Of a stretch of DNA of 64,000 nt, positions 42,752-53,386 are shown piece by piece. A program made the translations under genes and the position numbers. Numbering within the stretch: position 1 is the first letter of the stretch; each line of letters opens with the position of its first letter. The notes under the pieces were generated by a model that was not told the DNA's origin, made no database searches, and saw nothing but the letters and a program-made list of their open reading frames with translations. The DNA is taken from positions 62,001 through 126,000 of the forward strand of contig NZ_JAMLJM010000004.1 of NCBI RefSeq assembly GCF_023635005.1, in the 5' to 3' direction. Source of the stretch: Flavobacterium luminosum (GTDB lineage: Bacteria > Bacteroidota > Bacteroidia > Flavobacteriales > Flavobacteriaceae).

Positions 42752-43879
42752 CTATTTAAAACATTCTATGATCCTATCTATTTCTTTTTCATTTAGTTCA
42801 TAAAACAATGGTAATCTCAATAAAGTATCGGTAAATTTATCACTATTTTCTAACACCCTTCCATCATGTTTATCTTGATAATACGGGCTAGAATGCAAAG
42901 AAATATAATGAAAAACGGCCAAAATATCTTTCTCTTTCAGCTTCTGTATTACCTTCGTTCGCTGTTCTAAACTTTCAAAATTTATGAAAAACATATGTCC
43001 ATTATTGGTAGCATATTCTGGAATTTGCGGTAAATAAATGGCTACTTCCGAAGCTACAGCACTCATTTTTTCATAGTAATATTCCCAGAGTTGTTTTCTT
43101 TTGGTTTGAATGGTTTGAATATTCTCTACTTGTGCCCATAAAAAAGCCGCGGTCACTTCTGAAGGCAAAAAAGAACTTCCTGTATCCACCCAACCGTATT
43201 TATCTACTTCTCCTCTAAAAAACTGAGATCGGTTGGTTCCTTTTTCCCAGATGATTTCGGCTCGTTCTACAAAACGATCATCATTAATCGTTAACATTCC
43301 CCCTTCTCCTGAAATAATATTTTTGGTCTCATGAAAAGAAAAAGCCGCTAAATGTCCGATGGAACCTAATGCTTTTTTTACCCCCTCTTTACCTGTATAA
43401 AAACTATCTATGGCTTGTGCCGCATCTTCAATTACTAACAAGTTATATTTATTAGCCAAATCCATAATCAGATCCATATCACAAGCGATGCCCGCATAAT
43501 GGACTGGTACAATGGCTTTTGTTTTTGGAGTGATTAGTGCTTCTATTTTAGTGGCATCCATATTTGGATTGTCCGAATACGAATCTGCAAAAACAATCTT
43601 AGCTCCTTGTCTTACAAAAGCTAGAGCCGTTGACACAAAGGTATAACTTGGGATTATTACTTCATCGCCTTCTTTAATATCAGCTAAAATGGCCGCCATT
43701 TCTAACGCATCTGTACAAGAAGACGTTAATAAGGCCTTTTTAAAACCATACTCATGTTCAAAAAATTGTTGGCACATTTTAGTATACTTTCCGTTCCCTG
43801 AAATCTTTCCGGAGCGCACCGCATCTTCAATGTATTTAATTTCACTACCTATTAAAAAAGGTTTGTTAAATGGTATCAT
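42752..43879 (-). CDS. wecE: dTDP-4-amino-4,6-dideoxygalactose transaminase (WecE/RffA)
   Basis: 375 aa, DegT/DnrJ/EryC1/StrS fold. The segments MIPFNKPFLIGSE, LLTSSCTDALEMAAIL, EVIIPSYTFVSTALAF, VPVHYAGIACDMD, VIEDAAQAIDS, FSFHETKNI (PLP Lys) and KGTNRSQFFRGEVDKYGW follow the E. coli WecE sequence closely as I recall it. It would turn dTDP-4-keto-6-deoxyglucose into dTDP-Fuc4N with glutamate as amino donor. The dTDP-glucose genes rmlA and rmlB are not in the window. The next gene (1-base overlap) is a NeuD-type acetyltransferase, the likely N-acetylation step. Confidence 0.9.
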   Translation of the reverse strand: MIPFNKPFLIGSEIKYIEDAVRSGKISGNGKYTKMCQQFFEHEYGFKKALLTSSCTDALEMAAILADIKEGDEVIIPSYTFVSTALAFVRQGAKIVFADSYSDNPNMDATKIEALITPKTKAIVPVHYAGIACDMDLIMDLANKYNLLVIEDAAQAIDSFYTGKEGVKKALGSIGHLAAFSFHETKNIISGEGGMLTINDDRFVERAEIIWEKGTNRSQFFRGEVDKYGWVDTGSSFLPSEVTAAFLWAQVENIQTIQTKRKQLWEYYYEKMSAVASEVAIYLPQIPEYATNNGHMFFINFESLEQRTKVIQKLKEKDILAVFHYISLHSSPYYQDKHDGRVLENSDKFTDTLLRLPLFYELNEKEIDRIIECFK

Positions 43880-44508
43880 TAGCGTATAAATTTAGCGGGA
43901 TTACCTACGTATAAACCGCTTTTTTCTATTGATTTTATGACTATAGTTGCTCCTCCCAATTGGGTATGCGCAACAATATTTAAATTATCGATGATCGTAG
44001 AATTGATTCCTAAAATACAACTTTCTTGAACGGTTACAAAACCCGCTACTGCCACTCTTGGAGATAAAAAACAATGTGATCCTATATGCGTATCATGCGC
44101 TATAGTACAACCGATATTTAAAATGGTATTGGTATGAATAACGGTATTCGCATCTATAATACAACCCGGATAAATCACACAACCTTTTTCTACTACAGCA
44201 GTTGTATCTATCCAGGAACTGGAATGAATTATTGTTCCAAATGGAATTGTTGATGAGAATTTCTCAAATAATTCTTTTCTCACTTGTAGATGCTTGTAGC
44301 CTATTCCAATAATTAATTCATCAAATTGTTTCGCTTCAAAAGCTTTACTAATTTCCGAAGTTTTACCTAATATGAGACAGCCATTTATTTCGGTTTGAGT
44401 AGTAAAATCATCAAAAAACACCACTGTATCATAGTGCTTATCACTCAGCGCATAATGTGCTATTTGCTGACCTAAATCGCCTGAACCTATTATGGCAAGT
44501 GTTCTCAT
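43879..44508 (-). CDS. NeuD/PglD-type sugar acetyltransferase
   Basis: 209 aa. LAIIGSGDLGQQIAHYALSD is the N-terminal nucleotide-sugar-binding Rossmann part; the beta-helix follows with CVIYPGCIIDANTVIHTNTI, GCTIAHDTHIGSHCFLSPRV and ILGINSTIIDNLNIVAHTQL, then GLYVGNPAKFI. The His of IAHDTHIG is at the catalytic position seen in PglD. It overlaps wecE by 1 base, so acetylation of dTDP-Fuc4N is the simplest role (inference); O-acetylation is an alternative. Confidence 0.83.
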   Translation of the reverse strand: MRTLAIIGSGDLGQQIAHYALSDKHYDTVVFFDDFTTQTEINGCLILGKTSEISKAFEAKQFDELIIGIGYKHLQVRKELFEKFSSTIPFGTIIHSSSWIDTTAVVEKGCVIYPGCIIDANTVIHTNTILNIGCTIAHDTHIGSHCFLSPRVAVAGFVTVQESCILGINSTIIDNLNIVAHTQLGGATIVIKSIEKSGLYVGNPAKFIR

Positions 44509-44512
44509 TTAT

Positions 44513-45199
44513 CTAATATTTTAAAAACTTACGGGAGTTATCTCCTTCATTAAAAATTAAATCTAATATGGAAACTCCATGTTCAAAAGGTATATTTAGT
44601 TGATTATATTCTTTATAACCAGAATAATCCATCCATTCTAGATCAATTTTATTCTCATTAAACAGAACCTCATCAATATAATCTTTTGCTGATGGTCCAG
44701 ACAGATATACTGAGGCATCCGCCTGTTTGCACAAATTAATTAATCTTTCCGATTTTCCAACTCCCAAAATGTAATCGGTTGAAAAACTTATTTTCGTTTT
44801 AATCCCCAAAAAATCACAAATTCCTTTAATAAAAATATAATTTATTTCCGATAAATTTTCTTTATTTTCTACTTGCTCATACAAACCAAAAATAAAATCT
44901 TTTGTTTCATTAAAACAGCTAGCCTTAGCATAATTGGTTTGTAAAGTAGCTTTGTGCTTTTTTACCCATTTTTTATCAAAAATTTTGGTATCGCATATTC
45001 TCTGAGACAAATTTTCAACTCTAACGGGGATCGTAATCCATTCTAATCCATTGACTGTTTTAATTTTATTTCTATTCCTCCAATCATTTTTAGTATACTG
45101 CATCTCATCATAGATAATGAATTCATCTACGGAAGCAATAAGATCAAAATAACCTTTCCAAGGAATGTAATTAGATTGTAATATGGCCAGTTTCTTCAT
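44513..45199 (-). CDS. WbqC-like family protein
   Basis: 228 aa. LAILQSNYIPWKGYFDLIAS, DEFIIYDEMQYTKNDWRNRN, ITIPVRVENLSQRICDTKIF, INYIFIKGICDFLGIKTKIS and YLSGPSAKDYIDEVLFNENK are the ordered blocks of the WbqC family. WbqC proteins are found in O-antigen and capsule clusters, commonly beside amino-sugar genes; the family activity is not settled as far as I know. Here it sits 4 bases upstream of the wecE/acetyltransferase pair, in keeping with a step in amino-sugar modification. Confidence 0.88.
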   Translation of the reverse strand: MKKLAILQSNYIPWKGYFDLIASVDEFIIYDEMQYTKNDWRNRNKIKTVNGLEWITIPVRVENLSQRICDTKIFDKKWVKKHKATLQTNYAKASCFNETKDFIFGLYEQVENKENLSEINYIFIKGICDFLGIKTKISFSTDYILGVGKSERLINLCKQADASVYLSGPSAKDYIDEVLFNENKIDLEWMDYSGYKEYNQLNIPFEHGVSILDLIFNEGDNSRKFLKY

Positions 45200-45202
45200 A
45201 TT

Positions 45203-47083
45203 TTAATTGAGTTTTTTTACAAAATCATCTTCCCATTTAAACTCATATGATTCAACATATTTAAAAATTTCACCTGCTTTTCTCCATGGAGTATTAATTT
45301 GATTTTTTAAAAAATTATACTCCCATTTTTCTTTAGCGTATACTTCTTTATAGTAAACTTTATAACTTACAATCCTGTATTTGCTATTAACTTCGAAATA
45401 TTTCAAATACTTTATAATCTCCTCAGAATAAATTGACAATTTAAAATTCGAACTATTAACTCTAAAAGCAGCATTTGCCCAAACTGAACCATTTTCATAG
45501 CTTTTACTAGGCATTCCATTTTTATCTAGAAGGGGAAAATCAATTTTATTCCCATAAACATCAATAGCTTCAATTCTAAAAATCTTATTGTAAGTTTTAA
45601 AATGATCATCAAAAATAAAAACAGCATGATGTGTTATTCCAAAAAAATCTGTGTAAACATCTCTTGAATATTCATAAAGAACAAAAACAAACTTGTTAAT
45701 TTTTTCAACCTTTGGAAAATTATTCTGAATAGTCGGTGAAAACCAAATCATCAACAATTGTCCAAAGCTTAGAAACAAAATAACACACTTCCAAAAAACA
45801 GTAGTCAATAGTACTTTATTCCAGCCCTTAATTAAAAAATCATCGTTTTCACTTGGCGGTGGTGTATAAATAGGTATAGTACAATTTTCAGCTGTACAAC
45901 GCTCTGTTACCCTATTTCCTGCAATGTAGTCGTATATCTTTTGTCCAAGAGAAGAAATCAAAGGCAAGGAAATCAACAGCCCTAATAAGTAGGTATAACG
46001 CATCGCTTTTAATAAGGAAACGTAAGCCCAAAATCCTGAAACCACTTTTCCTGAACTCGTTACGCCATGAATATTAATAAGTAATGTTTCTTCATCGTAA
46101 TTGAGTAGTGCCTCATTATTTTTATAATTTCCTTGAACAGGTAAGCATTCTACTGTATTAAAAATATCGAAATGACGAATTACAATGACCACCTTGTTAC
46201 ATAAAGGACACTCTAAATCATAGTAAAAAGTATAGATAGGATTTTTACATTTAATCTTTGAAGCCAAAAATTTCCAATATTTAACAGGAACTAGTAATAA
46301 ATAAACCGCGATTACTGTTAAAGCAAACCAAGGAATGGGATATGCTATTAAGATTCCTACGTGAAAAAAAACGCCTAAAATAAAAAAGGGCACTCTAAAT
46401 TTTTTGAACCAAAACAAAAAGATAAAAACAGTCTCAAATGCTAACACCAAATAACCAAGAAAAAGCATTAACCCTTTTTGATTTAGTAATACACTAGTGT
46501 CGTTCCAAGTAACCATTGGCAAGCTTGAGGGTAACCAAACCCCTAAACCATCCATCCACATTTTACTTGACAATTTGTGAAAAATAGAATCAAAATAGAC
46601 TAATCCAATTGCAACAAAAACGGGTATGACATAATTAATTTTCAATACCTTTCTATCTTCCAAAAATGGTTTATACAAAGTCGAATATTTCAGTTTTTTC
46701 AAAAGACTGTCCAACGATAGTACTCTTGATATTGGCATAAAAATCAATAAGAAATTGATTCCTACATAGGCATAAAACACATGATATTCGAACTTTATGG
46801 CCGAACTAAATATAATGACTCCAAAAATATAATTGAGTATTGTAATGTAACGTGTAAATAAACCCAAAAACAAAAAAACAACTACTGGAAACCAAAAATA
46901 AAAGATGAAACTTACATCTATTTCTCCGGTATATTGATACGGTTCTTTATCGTAAATAATACTTCTGAAAGTATACAATTGTAGTAATTCTAAAAACAAA
47001 ACCACACTATAGAACATCCTGAAAACAGATATTCCTATGGCATCAACTTTTGTGGTAAATAAAGAATTAATTATGTTTTTCAT
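45203..47083 (-). CDS. HTTM domain fused to DCC-type thiol oxidoreductase domain
   Basis: 626 aa in three parts. Residues 1-275: a multi-helix membrane domain of the HTTM type (related to vitamin K-dependent gamma-carboxylase), with VFRMFYSVVLFLELLQLYTF, a strongly helical core and HKLSSKMWMDGLGVW. Residues about 280-390: a DCC-family thiol-disulfide domain with FYYDLECPLCNKVV (Cys-Pro-Leu-Cys near 291-294) and LLLINIHG-like strands. After two more hydrophobic segments comes a 170-residue hydrophilic C-terminal domain of unknown type. It lies between WbqC and a GT4 gene with 3-base gaps, so it is co-transcribed with glycan genes. Role unknown; membrane redox or modification is a guess. Confidence 0.78.
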   Translation of the reverse strand: MKNIINSLFTTKVDAIGISVFRMFYSVVLFLELLQLYTFRSIIYDKEPYQYTGEIDVSFIFYFWFPVVVFLFLGLFTRYITILNYIFGVIIFSSAIKFEYHVFYAYVGINFLLIFMPISRVLSLDSLLKKLKYSTLYKPFLEDRKVLKINYVIPVFVAIGLVYFDSIFHKLSSKMWMDGLGVWLPSSLPMVTWNDTSVLLNQKGLMLFLGYLVLAFETVFIFLFWFKKFRVPFFILGVFFHVGILIAYPIPWFALTVIAVYLLLVPVKYWKFLASKIKCKNPIYTFYYDLECPLCNKVVIVIRHFDIFNTVECLPVQGNYKNNEALLNYDEETLLINIHGVTSSGKVVSGFWAYVSLLKAMRYTYLLGLLISLPLISSLGQKIYDYIAGNRVTERCTAENCTIPIYTPPPSENDDFLIKGWNKVLLTTVFWKCVILFLSFGQLLMIWFSPTIQNNFPKVEKINKFVFVLYEYSRDVYTDFFGITHHAVFIFDDHFKTYNKIFRIEAIDVYGNKIDFPLLDKNGMPSKSYENGSVWANAAFRVNSSNFKLSIYSEEIIKYLKYFEVNSKYRIVSYKVYYKEVYAKEKWEYNFLKNQINTPWRKAGEIFKYVESYEFKWEDDFVKKLN

Positions 47084-47086
47084 TCC

Positions 47087-48403
47087 TTAAAGATTGTGGA
47101 TTTTGTTAAATATTTGATCCGCACTTTCCATGGAAGAAAACTCTTGAATAGTCCTGTAAGCATTTTTTGAAAAATTATCATATTCTGGTTTGGGCAAACC
47201 AAAAATTTGATGAATTCCATTTGCTAAATCTTCACTGTCTTTTAGTTTCGCTTTATATCCATTATACCCTGTTACCACTAAATTATTTACTACCCCCATA
47301 TCAAAACCAACCACAGGTGTTCCGCAAGCCATAGCTTCTGAAACCATTAAAGGTCCTGAATCTTCAATAGATGAGTTTACAAAAACATCAACTGCCTGAT
47401 ATAACAAAGTCAACAATCTATAATCCTTAATAAAGTCTATGTGTTTTTTTGAAAAAGGGATTTCATTAAAAGATTCAGAGACATCTTTTGAAACAACAAT
47501 TACTTCTATCTTATTTTTTTCAGTAGGGCTGATTTTTTCTTCTACTATTTTCAGTGATTCTACTAAATACTCAAAACCTTTTCTTTTAGCTTTGGCATTT
47601 TGACATCCCATTAATATGTAAAACTTATCTTCATCTAACTCAAAAATTCTCTTTGCAATGTCTCTATTTTTATTGTTAAATAGGTTTAAATCAATTAAAC
47701 TATTTACATTAAATATTACCGCTTGGTTTTTATAAATTTTAGATTCTTTTGCTTGTTGCAGCGTCCATCCAGAACCCGCCAAAATTTTAAAATTCCCTAG
47801 CTGTGCATTTTTTAATTTTGTATCAAAATTTATTTTAGGAATATCTTTTCCATACTCACTTAGTATTGCAGGGCATTTGTCTGAACATCCTTCAATATAC
47901 CCTTTACACTCCCAAGCAAAATGGCACCCCCCTGTAAAATGGTTCATATCAACCGTGATGTTATAAACCTCTGCATTGGTTAACTGCTGAAGATTTAGTA
48001 AATCCGTTGAATTCATGAAGTTATCTGTCATTCCTCTGTAAATGAAATCAGGATTAAATCCAACTAATTCAATGATTCGAGTTGGAGACACATTTACTTT
48101 TGTTTCCTCTACACTGATAAAGTCATAGTTAAAATCATAATCAATTTTTAAAGTAGCTTTAGGACTACTTAACTTTTGTTTCAATTTTAAATGAGCCCGT
48201 TCGAGAATACTTTTTCGCTTATATGGTTTGGGTACGTCAGTATAAGTCGTTATAAAACTATCCGATTTAGTTTTAATTTTAACCAACATTTTAACTTGAT
48301 GTCCTTGTAAATCAAAATGTTTCCCTAAACGAAACATTACTTCGTAGGCACCATTTATATCTCCTGTTGAAAGTAATAGTATTTTCTTTTTTAACTGATC
48401 CAT
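47087..48403 (-). CDS. Glycosyltransferase family 4 with Cys-rich insert (WcaC-like)
   Basis: 438 aa. KILLLSTGDINGAYEVMFRL opens the GT-B fold. Residues about 150-180 contain MNHFTGGCHFAWECKGYIEG and CSDKCPAI, the four-cysteine insert typical of the WcaC-like branch of GT4, perhaps a metal-binding lid. The donor half has FYILMGCQNAKAKRKGFEYL, VDVFVNSSIEDSGPLMVSEA and ACGTPVVGFDMGVVNNLVV. It overlaps the wzt stop by 13 bases. Substrates unknown. Confidence 0.87.
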   Translation of the reverse strand: MDQLKKKILLLSTGDINGAYEVMFRLGKHFDLQGHQVKMLVKIKTKSDSFITTYTDVPKPYKRKSILERAHLKLKQKLSSPKATLKIDYDFNYDFISVEETKVNVSPTRIIELVGFNPDFIYRGMTDNFMNSTDLLNLQQLTNAEVYNITVDMNHFTGGCHFAWECKGYIEGCSDKCPAILSEYGKDIPKINFDTKLKNAQLGNFKILAGSGWTLQQAKESKIYKNQAVIFNVNSLIDLNLFNNKNRDIAKRIFELDEDKFYILMGCQNAKAKRKGFEYLVESLKIVEEKISPTEKNKIEVIVVSKDVSESFNEIPFSKKHIDFIKDYRLLTLLYQAVDVFVNSSIEDSGPLMVSEAMACGTPVVGFDMGVVNNLVVTGYNGYKAKLKDSEDLANGIHQIFGLPKPEYDNFSKNAYRTIQEFSSMESADQIFNKIHNL

Positions 48404-49641
48404 TGAATTGGTATTTTAAAGATTCCGTTCTCCGTATCTCCATACTTAAATTCATCTTGAGCGATATTAACAATGCTTAAATTGATTTTTTCAGAAGGTA
48501 AATCTAAAAGTTTCACTTTAGGAATATCCAAGGCTAACCCAATTTTGTACAGATTAGCAATCATACAATCACCAGGAATTTTAACTATCCACTCTGCTGT
48601 TCCTATAAAATCTAAGTCTTTCCTATTAATAAAAATTACATTTTCAAATTTATCTAAGATAGAAAAATTTAATCTAGCACCTTTATTAAATAGACTATTT
48701 CTCAAAGTAATATGAACAAATATTTCTTGATTGGAATAAAATTCAATGATTTCATTACCCTCTTTATCCTTAAGGGCTACTTTTAAAATTTGTGCTTCTT
48801 TGGATTCATCGATTTCATAACTAAGTTCAGATTGTTTCTCATTTGAAGAATAATTTAGTAAATAAGAATCAAGTGTAGTATCAATACTTCCTTCATGAAT
48901 CAATTGTCCATGATGCAACAACACTCCTTTATCACAGAGCTTTTTTACGGCATCTAAATTATGACTCACAAACAACACCGTTCTTCCTTCCCCTTTGCTC
49001 ACGTCGTTCATTTTACCTAAACACTTCTTTTGGAACTCGGCATCTCCTACTGCCAATACCTCATCGACAATTAAAATCTCGGATTCTAAATGTGCGGCAA
49101 CCGCAAATGCCAAACGGACGTACATTCCTGAAGAATAGCGTTTTACCGGGGTATCAATGTAACGTTCTACCCCTGAGAACGCAATGATTTCATCAAATTT
49201 TCGGGTAATTTCATGCTTGCGCATGCCTAAAATAGCGCCATTCAGATAGATATTCTCGCGTCCCGTCATTTCTGGATGAAAACCCGTTCCTACTTCCAAC
49301 AAAGAAGCAATCCTTCCTTTAGTATAAATTTTACCGGTAGTGGGTTGGGTCACTTGACTTAATATTTTTAACAAGGTTGATTTCCCTGCTCCATTACGGC
49401 CAATAATCCCCACCGAATCCCCTTGGTTGATTTCAAAATTGATATCGCGCAAACTCCAAACGTAATCGCTTTCGCCTTTACTGCTTCTATCATTCGCTTC
49501 TCCAATTTTTAAAAACGGATCTTCTTTTCCACGCAAATTATACCACCAACGCTTTAAGTCATCCTTCACTGTACCGGTACCTACCAACCCTAGACGGTAT
49601 TGCTTCGAAATATGTTCGGCTTTTATTACTACTTTACTCAA
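48391..49641 (-). CDS. wzt: Polysaccharide ABC transporter ATPase with C-terminal Wzt domain
   Basis: 416 aa. The ATPase covers about residues 1-255: Walker A GRNGAGKST near 79, the signature YSSGMYVRLAFA near 172, Walker B ILIVDEVLAVGDAEF near 190, and FVSHN with the switch His. Residues about 270-416 form a beta-sandwich-like extension (ILKVALKDKEGNEI, ARLNFSILDKFENVIFINRK) of the Wzt C-terminal type, which in O9a/O8 antigen systems reads the chain-end modification before export. With Wzm it would flip the finished glycan across the inner membrane. The permease gene is unusually far upstream, beyond a 117-bp tandem repeat. Confidence 0.92.
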   Translation of the reverse strand: MSKVVIKAEHISKQYRLGLVGTGTVKDDLKRWWYNLRGKEDPFLKIGEANDRSSKGESDYVWSLRDINFEINQGDSVGIIGRNGAGKSTLLKILSQVTQPTTGKIYTKGRIASLLEVGTGFHPEMTGRENIYLNGAILGMRKHEITRKFDEIIAFSGVERYIDTPVKRYSSGMYVRLAFAVAAHLESEILIVDEVLAVGDAEFQKKCLGKMNDVSKGEGRTVLFVSHNLDAVKKLCDKGVLLHHGQLIHEGSIDTTLDSYLLNYSSNEKQSELSYEIDESKEAQILKVALKDKEGNEIIEFYSNQEIFVHITLRNSLFNKGARLNFSILDKFENVIFINRKDLDFIGTAEWIVKIPGDCMIANLYKIGLALDIPKVKLLDLPSEKINLSIVNIAQDEFKYGDTENGIFKIPIQWIS

Positions 49642-50189: not shown

Positions 50190-51047
50190 CTACACCGTAT
50201 CCATAAACGTCTTCTGTGTCTTATTGAACACCAAAACCCCTATCATCAGGATTACTATAGAAAATACGGAAGGATAAATCAAATCCACTATTGAAAAATC
50301 ACCCACACCCAGATAGGCATAACGCATGTAATCAAACAAACCGACTAAAGGATTTAAGTCTGTCACCCATGCATACTCTTGTGGCACGGAAGAACTCGGG
50401 TAAATTACGGGAGTAGCATACATGAACAGTTGTACTCCGAAACCAATTAATTGGTTCAAGTCTTTGTATTTGGTCGTCATGGACGATAAAATCAATCCAA
50501 ATCCCATAGAAATTAAAGCCATGAGCACGATAATGAAAGGAGTCAGTACAATCGAACTGTTCGGCGCTATTTGACTTTTAAACGTGAAATAACCTACAAA
50601 GCCTACAAACAGTAAAAACTGTACCCCGAACTTCATTAGATTGGAGATCACTATCGTTAAGGGCATAATCAATCTAGGAAAATACACTTTCCCAAAAATG
50701 CCCGCATTGGCATTAAAAACTCCGGAAACACTGGTCAGACACGTAGAAAAATAGTTCCACAAGGTAATCCCCGCCATGTAGAATACCACCTGTGGTGCCC
50801 CGTCGGTAGACAATTGGGCTACATTCCCGAAAATAATGGTAAAGGTAATCGTGGTTAATAAGGGTTGAATGAAAAACCAAAGCGGTCCCAAAATGGTTTG
50901 TTTGTAAACCGTTACAAAATCTCTTCGTACAAACAAGAATAGTAAATCTCTATACTGCCAGACCTCTCTTAATTTCAGATCCCATAAGGAAGTTTTTGAT
51001 TCTATGACATGATCCCAGTGCTCTTGGGGTAAAGCTTCCTGCTTCAT
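50190..51047 (-). CDS. wzm: Polysaccharide ABC transporter permease
   Basis: 285 aa from the ATG at 51047 (MKQEALPQEHWDHVIESKTS); the in-frame TTG at 51101 is less likely. WQYRDLLFLFVRRDFVTVYK and TILGPLWFFIQPLLTTITFT are the conserved N-terminal amphipathic and first membrane segments of ABC-2 type O-antigen permeases, followed by five more hydrophobic segments and MYATPVIYPSSSVPQEYAWV (periplasmic loop). It pairs with Wzt at 48391. It is the only gene between the two repeat-rich gaps. Confidence 0.92.
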   Translation of the reverse strand: MKQEALPQEHWDHVIESKTSLWDLKLREVWQYRDLLFLFVRRDFVTVYKQTILGPLWFFIQPLLTTITFTIIFGNVAQLSTDGAPQVVFYMAGITLWNYFSTCLTSVSGVFNANAGIFGKVYFPRLIMPLTIVISNLMKFGVQFLLFVGFVGYFTFKSQIAPNSSIVLTPFIIVLMALISMGFGLILSSMTTKYKDLNQLIGFGVQLFMYATPVIYPSSSVPQEYAWVTDLNPLVGLFDYMRYAYLGVGDFSIVDLIYPSVFSIVILMIGVLVFNKTQKTFMDTV

Positions 51048-51160
51048 TTTACTTCTCTTTTTATTGGATTGCAACTTAGTAATAAAATAGATGTTAAACA
51101 AATACTAAAAAAGGTATTATGGTTAAATTTTAAGGTGTTTTTATTGGTTGAAGCAGGTTG

Positions 51161-52432: not shown

Positions 52433-53386
52433 TTAATGCTTTCTATAAGTGGTTGTTTTTTTATCTCCATATTTTGTAATGATTCCCATTTCAACCGCTT
52501 TTTTTAAATCTCTGCTCGCTGTTGCTGATGATAAATCCTTGAAATAATGTAAATAATCCTTTCTTGTAAATTCTTCATCAAAATCTTCAATAAAAATTTG
52601 AATTCTATCTTCAATAGAAAGTTTTTTTGTTGCATTCTCTAAAAGTTCATTCAAAGATTGATCCATAACACTGAGCATATACTCAATGAATTTAGTAGAT
52701 TTTCCTTCTTTGTCAGAAGCAGATAATGCATTGTAATAGGCTGTTTGGTTTTTTGAAATTAAAGTTTCAAAAGGTAAAAATTCAAATACCTGATATTCTT
52801 CCATTAAAATCAACGTTTGCCATAATCTTCCCATTCTTCCGTTCCCATCCATAAAGGGATGAATGAATTCCATTTCGTAGTGAAATACACAACTTTTAAT
52901 TAATGAAATTTCTGATTCATCCTTTACATATTGAAATAAATCGTTCATTAAAAATGGTACATTTTCATAAGGAGGAGCAACATGCTCGATTTTTGAGCCT
53001 TTCACAATTCCAACTCCTTTTGTTCTGTATTTTCCTGAATTTTCTATAAGACCTTTCATCAGCATTTTATGCGCTTTTAAAAAATCTTTTTCAGAATAAT
53101 GTTTAAGGGTATTTATGTTTTTATACACTTCCAAAGCATTCAAAACTTCTATGATGTCTTTCTGAGGCCCAACAACTCGTTTATTTTCTACTATTGCTGT
53201 GATTTGTTCTTCCGACAGCGTATTTCCCTCAATACTTAATGATGAATGTATTGTTTTTATTTGATTTTGTTTTCGTAAACTTGGATTCGTTTTGACTAAA
53301 TATTTTGCATTTACCTCTCCAATTTTCTCTGAAATCGAAGAGATGTATTTCAATATTAGTGAAGTTATTTCGTAGGGTGGTTTCAT
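52433..53386 (-). CDS. Fic/DOC family protein with N-terminal inhibitory helix and winged-helix tail
   Basis: 317 aa. The Fic motif HPFMDGNGRMGR is complete at about residues 175-186 and contains the catalytic His. SSLSIEGNT at 48-56 fits the (S/T)xxxE(G/N) inhibitory helix, with Glu53, placing it in the class with N-terminal inhibition. The last 60 residues (RKDYLHYFKDLSSATASRDL, KKAVEMGIITKYGDKKTTTY) form a winged helix. Typical Fic enzymes of this layout transfer AMP to a target hydroxyl, and many modify or regulate themselves. It stands alone between the phosphatase and Wzc genes; no antitoxin gene is present. Target unknown. Confidence 0.9.
   Translation of the reverse strand: MKPPYEITSLILKYISSISEKIGEVNAKYLVKTNPSLRKQNQIKTIHSSLSIEGNTLSEEQITAIVENKRVVGPQKDIIEVLNALEVYKNINTLKHYSEKDFLKAHKMLMKGLIENSGKYRTKGVGIVKGSKIEHVAPPYENVPFLMNDLFQYVKDESEISLIKSCVFHYEMEFIHPFMDGNGRMGRLWQTLILMEEYQVFEFLPFETLISKNQTAYYNALSASDKEGKSTKFIEYMLSVMDQSLNELLENATKKLSIEDRIQIFIEDFDEEFTRKDYLHYFKDLSSATASRDLKKAVEMGIITKYGDKKTTTYRKH

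Follow-up and report, generated by a model that had tools for sequence, protein, structure and literature searches.

A carboxylase-like membrane protein carrying a DCC domain recurs in flavobacterial sugar clusters and points to a surface-sugar modification

The window studied here, the whole 64,000-nucleotide stretch of Flavobacterium luminosum DNA that was analyzed, encodes a membrane protein in which an HTTM domain is joined to a DCC1-like domain and to a further C-terminal domain. The recurrence of this carboxylase-like protein in flavobacterial sugar clusters suggests a form of surface-sugar modification that has yet to be studied. The genomic link to glycans is strong, and we consider a glycan role of any kind highly probable. 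The fuller proposal, that the protein is a periplasm-facing, probably menaquinol-using HTTM enzyme acting on a surface glycan that bears an N-acylated 4-amino-4,6-dideoxyhexose, which it modifies, with DCC as an accessory, is about an even call. The protein, its parts and its neighbors are as follows.

45203..47083, minus strand: HTTM-DCC-C-terminal domain protein, 626 aa, ATG start (AlphaFold model pLDDT 82.4, pTM 0.82)
46283..47083, minus strand: HTTM membrane domain, residues about 1-267 (TM1-8), from fold match, profile comparison and conservation
45908..46225, minus strand: DCC1-like domain, residues 287-392, with CPLC at 292-295 (PF04134, E 1.1e-15)
45206..45817, minus strand: TM9 (about 423-447) and C-terminal domain to residue 626, from the AlphaFold model and alignment to GGCX, the human vitamin K-dependent gamma-carboxylase
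42752..43879, minus strand: WecE/RffA-type dTDP-4-amino-4,6-dideoxygalactose transaminase (NF008687, 563.5 bits, cut-off 375; TIGR02379, 513.4 bits, cut-off 434.85)
43879..44508, minus strand: NeuD/PglD-family sugar acetyltransferase (TIGR03570, 170.1 bits, cut-off 160.8)
44513..45199, minus strand: WbqC-like protein (PF08889, E 6.2e-76), 3 bases from the HTTM-DCC gene
47087..48403, minus strand: GT4 glycosyltransferase (PF00534, E 1e-17), 3 bases from the HTTM-DCC gene
48391..49641, minus strand: Wzt-like ABC ATPase (polysaccharide-export models best, below their cut-offs)
50190..51101, minus strand: Wzm-like ABC permease (PF01061 over its cut-off; Wzm/KpsM models below theirs)

The coordinates bear out the 3-base gaps to the WbqC and GT4 genes described in the initial annotation. 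Both sugar enzymes pass NCBIfam cut-offs, the acetyltransferase for the NeuD/PglB/VioB model and the transaminase for dTDP-4-amino-4,6-dideoxygalactose transaminase. Also inside the polysaccharide region, the protein encoded at window positions 52433-53386 has, as read by eye, a Fic-like HPFxDGNGRxGR motif.

In a Pfam scan of the window protein, the DCC1-like domain is found at 59.3 bits (PF04134, cut-off 27.8) with its CxxC motif, which confirms the DCC domain with CPLC originally called. The HTTM model PF05090 scores only 9.9 bits (E 0.67, residues 13-266) and does not reach its cut-off of 27.7, so that the HTTM domain is invisible in a single-sequence scan; this curated cut-off is taken as operational, not defining, for membership in the HTTM superfamily. 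Among 16 family members, 12 match PF05090 at E <= 10 (best 1.1e-10), and one relative, L039, lies above the cut-off at 41.4 bits. Profile comparison (hhalign) of the HTTM part gave 98.6% (E 4.9e-16) with three VKGC-like proteins, 98.9% (E 1.1e-17) with 18 VKGC-like proteins, and 99.7% (E 3.4e-27) with eight stand-alone HTTM proteins. The 18 VKGC-like frames were taken from both strands of 22 loci (L009-L030), of which L009, L014, L020, and L025 yielded none. The better score against HTTM proteins linked to DUF5819 than against VKGC-like proteins speaks against a GGCX-like reading, and the two E values, 3.4e-27 and 1.1e-17, are not strictly comparable because the stand-alone set is more diverse. 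With the DCC columns omitted, the VKGC-like match spans query columns 3-312 (E 1.1e-17), past the HTTM part to about the end of TM9; with the natural DCC-free members as query, it ends at column 275 (E 2.4e-17). A search of PDB chain sequences with the window protein alone gave no match at E <= 1, and the same search with the family profile returned no GGCX, its sole match being a glyoxalase at E 0.39.

The predicted structure leads to the same family of proteins. GGCX entries make up the 16 best PDB matches of the AlphaFold model (Foldseek E 3.8e-5 to 0.086, best probability 1.00), with VIA Z scores of 17.8-24.6 for GGCX rows and 5.7 for the best non-GGCX row. In the best row (Z 24.6), 388 residues align between model positions 1-625 and GGCX 42-505 with an rmsd of 8.1, while a tighter row aligns 315 residues, model 1-501 to GGCX 34-411, with an rmsd of 4.1. 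The model thus has the HTTM membrane fold, as judged by its Z of 24.6 to GGCX. Profile comparison, the L039 score, and this predicted GGCX-like fold together uphold the HTTM-type membrane domain first proposed from the sequence, and they place the protein in the HTTM superfamily as a real but remote member.

Because the model aligns with GGCX along nearly its whole chain, DCC is predicted to be an insertion before TM9. The C-terminal part likely occupies the place of GGCX TM9 and the lumenal domain, in a different pose, and it is this position that makes the protein resemble a single carboxylase-like chain into which DCC has been inserted; the shared position need not mean common descent of the C-terminal and GGCX lumenal domains. 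Predicted alone (pLDDT 80.4, pTM 0.62), the C-terminal domain has no Foldseek match at E <= 0.001, and against solved structures its best VIA Z is 4.5, with no GGCX row. The VKGC lumenal family PF22777 is not among the 10 families matched by any of 16 members at E <= 10, and hhalign of the C-terminal domain gave below 1% with the VKGC lumenal profile and 1.3%, no link, with DUF5819-type small proteins. A known fold was therefore rejected for this domain, there being neither a convincing structure match nor a VKGC-like or DUF5819-type profile match. The structure prediction called for at the outset is accordingly divided, as the domain finds no convincing match alone but is placed at the TM9-plus-lumenal region of GGCX in the whole chain. 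The description of about 170 residues without relatives holds outside the family, where sequence comparison found none, but not within it: all 22 full-length members have the domain, with G482, T484, H486, V488, and F489 invariant.

Topology was derived from helices set by hand from the AlphaFold model. The TM4-TM5 loop holds 8 Lys plus Arg versus 3 Asp plus Glu, and by the positive-inside rule the N terminus and DCC are thus predicted to be cytoplasmic and the C-terminal domain periplasmic. The TM5-TM6 loop beside K170 is likewise predicted to face the periplasm, as in GGCX.

GGCX residues were mapped onto the family by aligning GGCX to the VKGC-like protein L043 and L043 to the window family. 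As described in PMC12589487, GGCX K218 serves as the base taking the proton from vitamin K hydroquinone; the substrate Glu is coordinated by N159, H160, and Y395; and F286, F294, F299, H160, V210, M401, and W223 form the naphthoquinone pocket. The numbers H287 and I296 are our own count, neither residue being named in the portion of PMC12589487 on which the mapping draws. In the 23 sequences, K170 (GGCX K218) is invariant, as is H101 (GGCX H160, as aligned via L043). W176, H241, and F253 are also invariant (23/23), and the equivalents of GGCX H287 and F299 are thus kept in all. Position 248 (F294) is Tyr or Phe in all 23, and position 240 (F286) is Leu in 12, Phe in 10, and Met in 1. The Asn of N159 is not kept, position 100 being Tyr in 22 of 23 and Asn in one, nor is the Lys of K217, position 169 being variable. 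The spacing between the Lys and W176 exceeds that to GGCX W223 by one residue, and VKGC-like proteins have Leu in the W176 column. When the three groups are aligned together, all 23 family members, 3 VKGC-like proteins, and 8 DUF5819-linked HTTM proteins have the Lys; as every HTTM protein compared has it, K170 by itself gives no argument for carboxylation. The H101 column holds His in the 23 family members, Asn in VKGC-like proteins (where the His follows one residue later), and either Gly or Ser in the DUF5819-linked set of 8. From the conserved pocket, quinol use by the window protein can fairly be inferred.

Relatives were collected from samples which overlap in part, each orthologue count including the window's own. 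The window protein matched 31 of 249 genomes of the family at 1e-3, with 8 counted as orthologues, and 9 of 398 genomes of the genus at 1e-20, with 9 orthologues; a 16-row alignment matched 7 of 296 genomes of the order at 1e-15 (6 orthologues) and 3 of 395 genomes of the phylum at 1e-15 (1 orthologue). Left out were 23 of the 31 matching genomes in the family sample, being more distant HTTM proteins or short pieces, and likewise G174 and a partial match in G948. A named collection gave matches in Flavobacterium limnosediminis, Flavobacteriaceae bacterium CRH, Flavobacterium sp. LC2016-13, and an uncultured Aquimarina. The total is 23 distinct loci, two of them from the named collection, with L031/L054 and L033/L056 treated as identical contigs and each counted once. 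The gene is sparse and, within the sampled genomes, confined to the order.

One of the 23 proteins (G637) ends at a stop after the membrane domain, and the other 22 are full length. DCC with CPLC and RCTxxNC is present in 16 of these 22, absent in five (L034, L037, L038, L040, and L041), and represented in L039 by an aligned remnant without the CPLC and RCTxxNC cysteines. The L039 gene (2923-4677, minus strand) thus joins a cysteine-free DCC stretch to an HTTM part over the Pfam cut-off, and none of the glycan markers lies nearby. As the DCC-bearing fusion recurs at 15 other loci, a chance joining or a frame artefact was rejected. In a tree built on the membrane and C-terminal parts, with the root placed on L039 by choice, the DCC-free members group together in a clade (support 94) that also includes the DCC-bearing L036; several nodes have support below 75. 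Most simply, these sequences suggest that DCC is ancestral and was lost more than once.

To survey the gene neighborhoods, the DNA around each of the 23 genes was searched by tblastn (E <= 1e-8) for 17 marker proteins; the stretches span about 10-22 kb, in most cases 20 kb and less at contig ends. At 22 of the 23 loci, one or more of the Wzm, Wzt, acetyltransferase, and transaminase markers are found, although these counts are not independent events, as many loci come from close relatives. Every one of the 16 loci that carry the DCC-bearing fusion has glycan genes, and the five DCC-free members retain the glycan context. An acetyltransferase, a transaminase, and one ligase-type gene occur together at 20 of 23 loci, the first two being assigned outside the window by similarity to the window's proteins. 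The ligase slot is filled by SDR, ATP-grasp, and HAD genes at 13 loci, by a D-Ala-D-Ala-ligase-like ATP-grasp at five, and by WbqC at two, the window included; ATP-grasp is thus present at 18, and at none of the 23 loci were ATP-grasp and WbqC seen together. The swapping of WbqC and ATP-grasp ligases in the same cassette hints that WbqC may perform an analogous acyl or aminoacyl step. Gene order is HTTM gene, ligase, acetyltransferase, and transaminase, with small insertions, except at L034, where the HTTM gene is last.

Other components vary. Wzm and Wzt match in 15 of 23 stretches and are absent from 8. NeuB- and NeuA-type genes are found at 4 of 23 loci (L036, L038, L040, and L041), where they lie upstream of the HTTM gene; three of these also hold a NeuC-type gene. 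None of the 17 markers surrounds the gene in G197 (L039), G288 lacks the acetyltransferase and ligase, and the short contig of G637 holds Wzm and Wzt only. As a control, a small one, the surroundings of four other HTTM genes (L042-L045) were screened, and all 17 markers were absent. The fusion was not found mainly outside glycan loci, as glycan genes occur at 16 of 16 DCC-bearing loci and at 22 of 23 in the family as a whole. The neighborhood survey supports both the surface-glycan link and the possible modification of a sugar or carrier that the initial annotation had suggested. Its glycan export operon stands in part: glycan genes are recurrent, but ABC export is not universal, with Wzm/Wzt at 15 of 23 loci.

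The protein resembles GGCX in the predicted fold of nearly the whole chain, the place of TM9 and the extracytoplasmic domain, the base lysine, the glutamate-pocket His, and most of the naphthoquinone pocket, whereas it differs in its DCC insertion before TM9, its surrounding glycan genes, the absence of a recognizable lumenal-domain sequence, and the residues N159 and K217, which are not kept. Flavobacterial HTTM plus VKGC_lumenal proteins (about 455 aa, L043 type) share the HTTM domain, base lysine, and glutamate-pocket His; in contrast, L043 has a clear PF22777 lumenal domain, and these proteins have no DCC and no glycan markers at the three loci checked. DCC1-like oxidoreductases (PF04134) share the domain, over the cut-off, and the CxxC motif, but elsewhere they are mostly frames of about 130-215 aa. 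In a 99-genome sample of the phylum, seven DCC matches lie in frames of more than 250 aa and the window's alone has an HTTM part; the six others (G910, G915, G960, G525, G923, and G442; both strands) gave no HTTM match at E <= 1. Frames of 277-287 aa at L113, L114, and L115 have an N-terminal DCC and a hydrophobic, by eye probably multi-helix C-terminal half with no HTTM match. In open-licence PubMed Central, we found no paper joining an HTTM domain and DCC or, among the titles listed, giving HTTM proteins a glycan role, and nothing on Flavobacterium O-polysaccharide with wzt and an aminotransferase or on gamma-carboxylase with Leptospira. Judged by title, the listed papers that use the word HTTM nearly all concern other subjects, with one on human GGCX, and those naming WbqC are likewise mostly unrelated. 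To our knowledge, what most bacterial HTTM proteins do is an open question.

Stand-alone HTTM genes have their own pattern. At all eight loci examined, the adjoining gene encodes a protein of 164-231 aa, and when four such proteins were tested, DUF5819 (PF19136) was matched by two of them but not by the other two. These HTTM and small DUF5819-type pairs may be SdpB/SdpA-like. At seven of the loci (L105-L111; DUF5819 in two of three tested), the pair may be a split form of what GGCX has in one chain, HTTM plus a TM9-lumenal part. At L042 (8862-10936), genes for a 216-aa protein with FFAPPP, a 297-aa HTTM protein, and a free-standing 130-aa DCC follow one another with no glycan markers around, modules like those of the window protein but as separate genes. 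The DUF5819-linked HTTM proteins are like the window protein in being its best-scoring HTTM sequences, in the base lysine (8/8), and in the DCC gene next door in L042. They are unlike it in having no fused C-terminal domain and no His in the H160 column (0/8), and L042, the one locus checked for glycan context, showed none; the window gene, for its part, adjoins WbqC and GT4 rather than a separate DUF5819-type gene.

These likenesses allow the protein to be read as a single-chain counterpart of an HTTM and DUF5819-type partner, SdpB/SdpA-like, which matures a peptide or protein and not a glycan. The best HTTM score (E 3.4e-27) is indeed to HTTM proteins beside 164-231 aa proteins (8/8 loci), with DUF5819 in two of four small proteins tested. 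As the C-terminal domain has no profile link to the small proteins (1.3%) and the shared neighbors are sugar genes at 20 of 23 loci, we regard this as very improbable. A redox protein, in which DCC handles membrane thiols and HTTM is the quinone-linked electron partner, serving thiol balance and not glycan chemistry, would fit the presence of CPLC and RCTxxNC in all 16 DCC-bearing members and the L042 run of an HTTM gene and then a free-standing DCC gene without glycan markers. However, DCC is absent in five and cysteine-free in one of 22 full-length members, and the five keep the glycan cassette. DCC as the core activity was rejected on these DCC-free, cassette-bearing members and on the tree, and thiol handling as the main job, a role raised in the initial annotation, is not supported. 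DCC is moreover predicted to be cytoplasmic, away from the predicted quinol site, leaving the redox reading quite unlikely.

Key pocket residues invariant over 23 sequences are not what is expected of a non-catalytic subunit with a vestigial quinol pocket, a scaffold or a chaperone binding the glycan, whose task would be to link assembly enzymes or the ABC exporter at the membrane. This alternative draws on the gene's position directly after Wzt (8 loci) or Wzt and GT4 (6 loci), 14 of 23 in all, and on a C-terminal domain with its own invariant residues (22/22); 8 of 23 stretches have no Wzm/Wzt, and we think a scaffold rather unlikely.

For the glycan-modifying enzyme, gene context and sequence conservation are observed and fold and topology are predicted; we infer quinol use, a periplasmic side of action, and a glycan substrate. 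Menaquinol would be bound in the pocket that matches the vitamin K site of GGCX, and K170 would be the base, acting on the periplasmic side. The target would be a surface glycan with an N-acylated 4-amino-4,6-dideoxyhexose, its 4-amino sugar being made by the neighboring WecE-type transaminase, NeuD-type acetyltransferase, and ATP-grasp or WbqC partner. DCC would be a cytoplasmic accessory, dispensable for core function. Carboxylation is one of several possible reactions. Its specific form, in which a menaquinol-driven enzyme applies strong-base chemistry like that of the vitamin K cycle to a surface polysaccharide, is unlikely; the group carboxylated could, for instance, be an acyl or aminoacyl one attached to the 4-amino-4,6-dideoxyhexose by the neighboring ATP-grasp or WbqC and NeuD-type enzymes.

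With its transaminase, acetyltransferase, and ligase, the conserved cassette confines the likely substrate to a single type of sugar and makes the chemistry testable. The family also presents the DCC module as a dispensable insertion in a carboxylase-like chain. If the carboxylation reading is true, gamma-carboxylase chemistry would have a glycan-directed branch, acting on an acyl or aminoacyl group of a 4-amino-4,6-dideoxyhexose.
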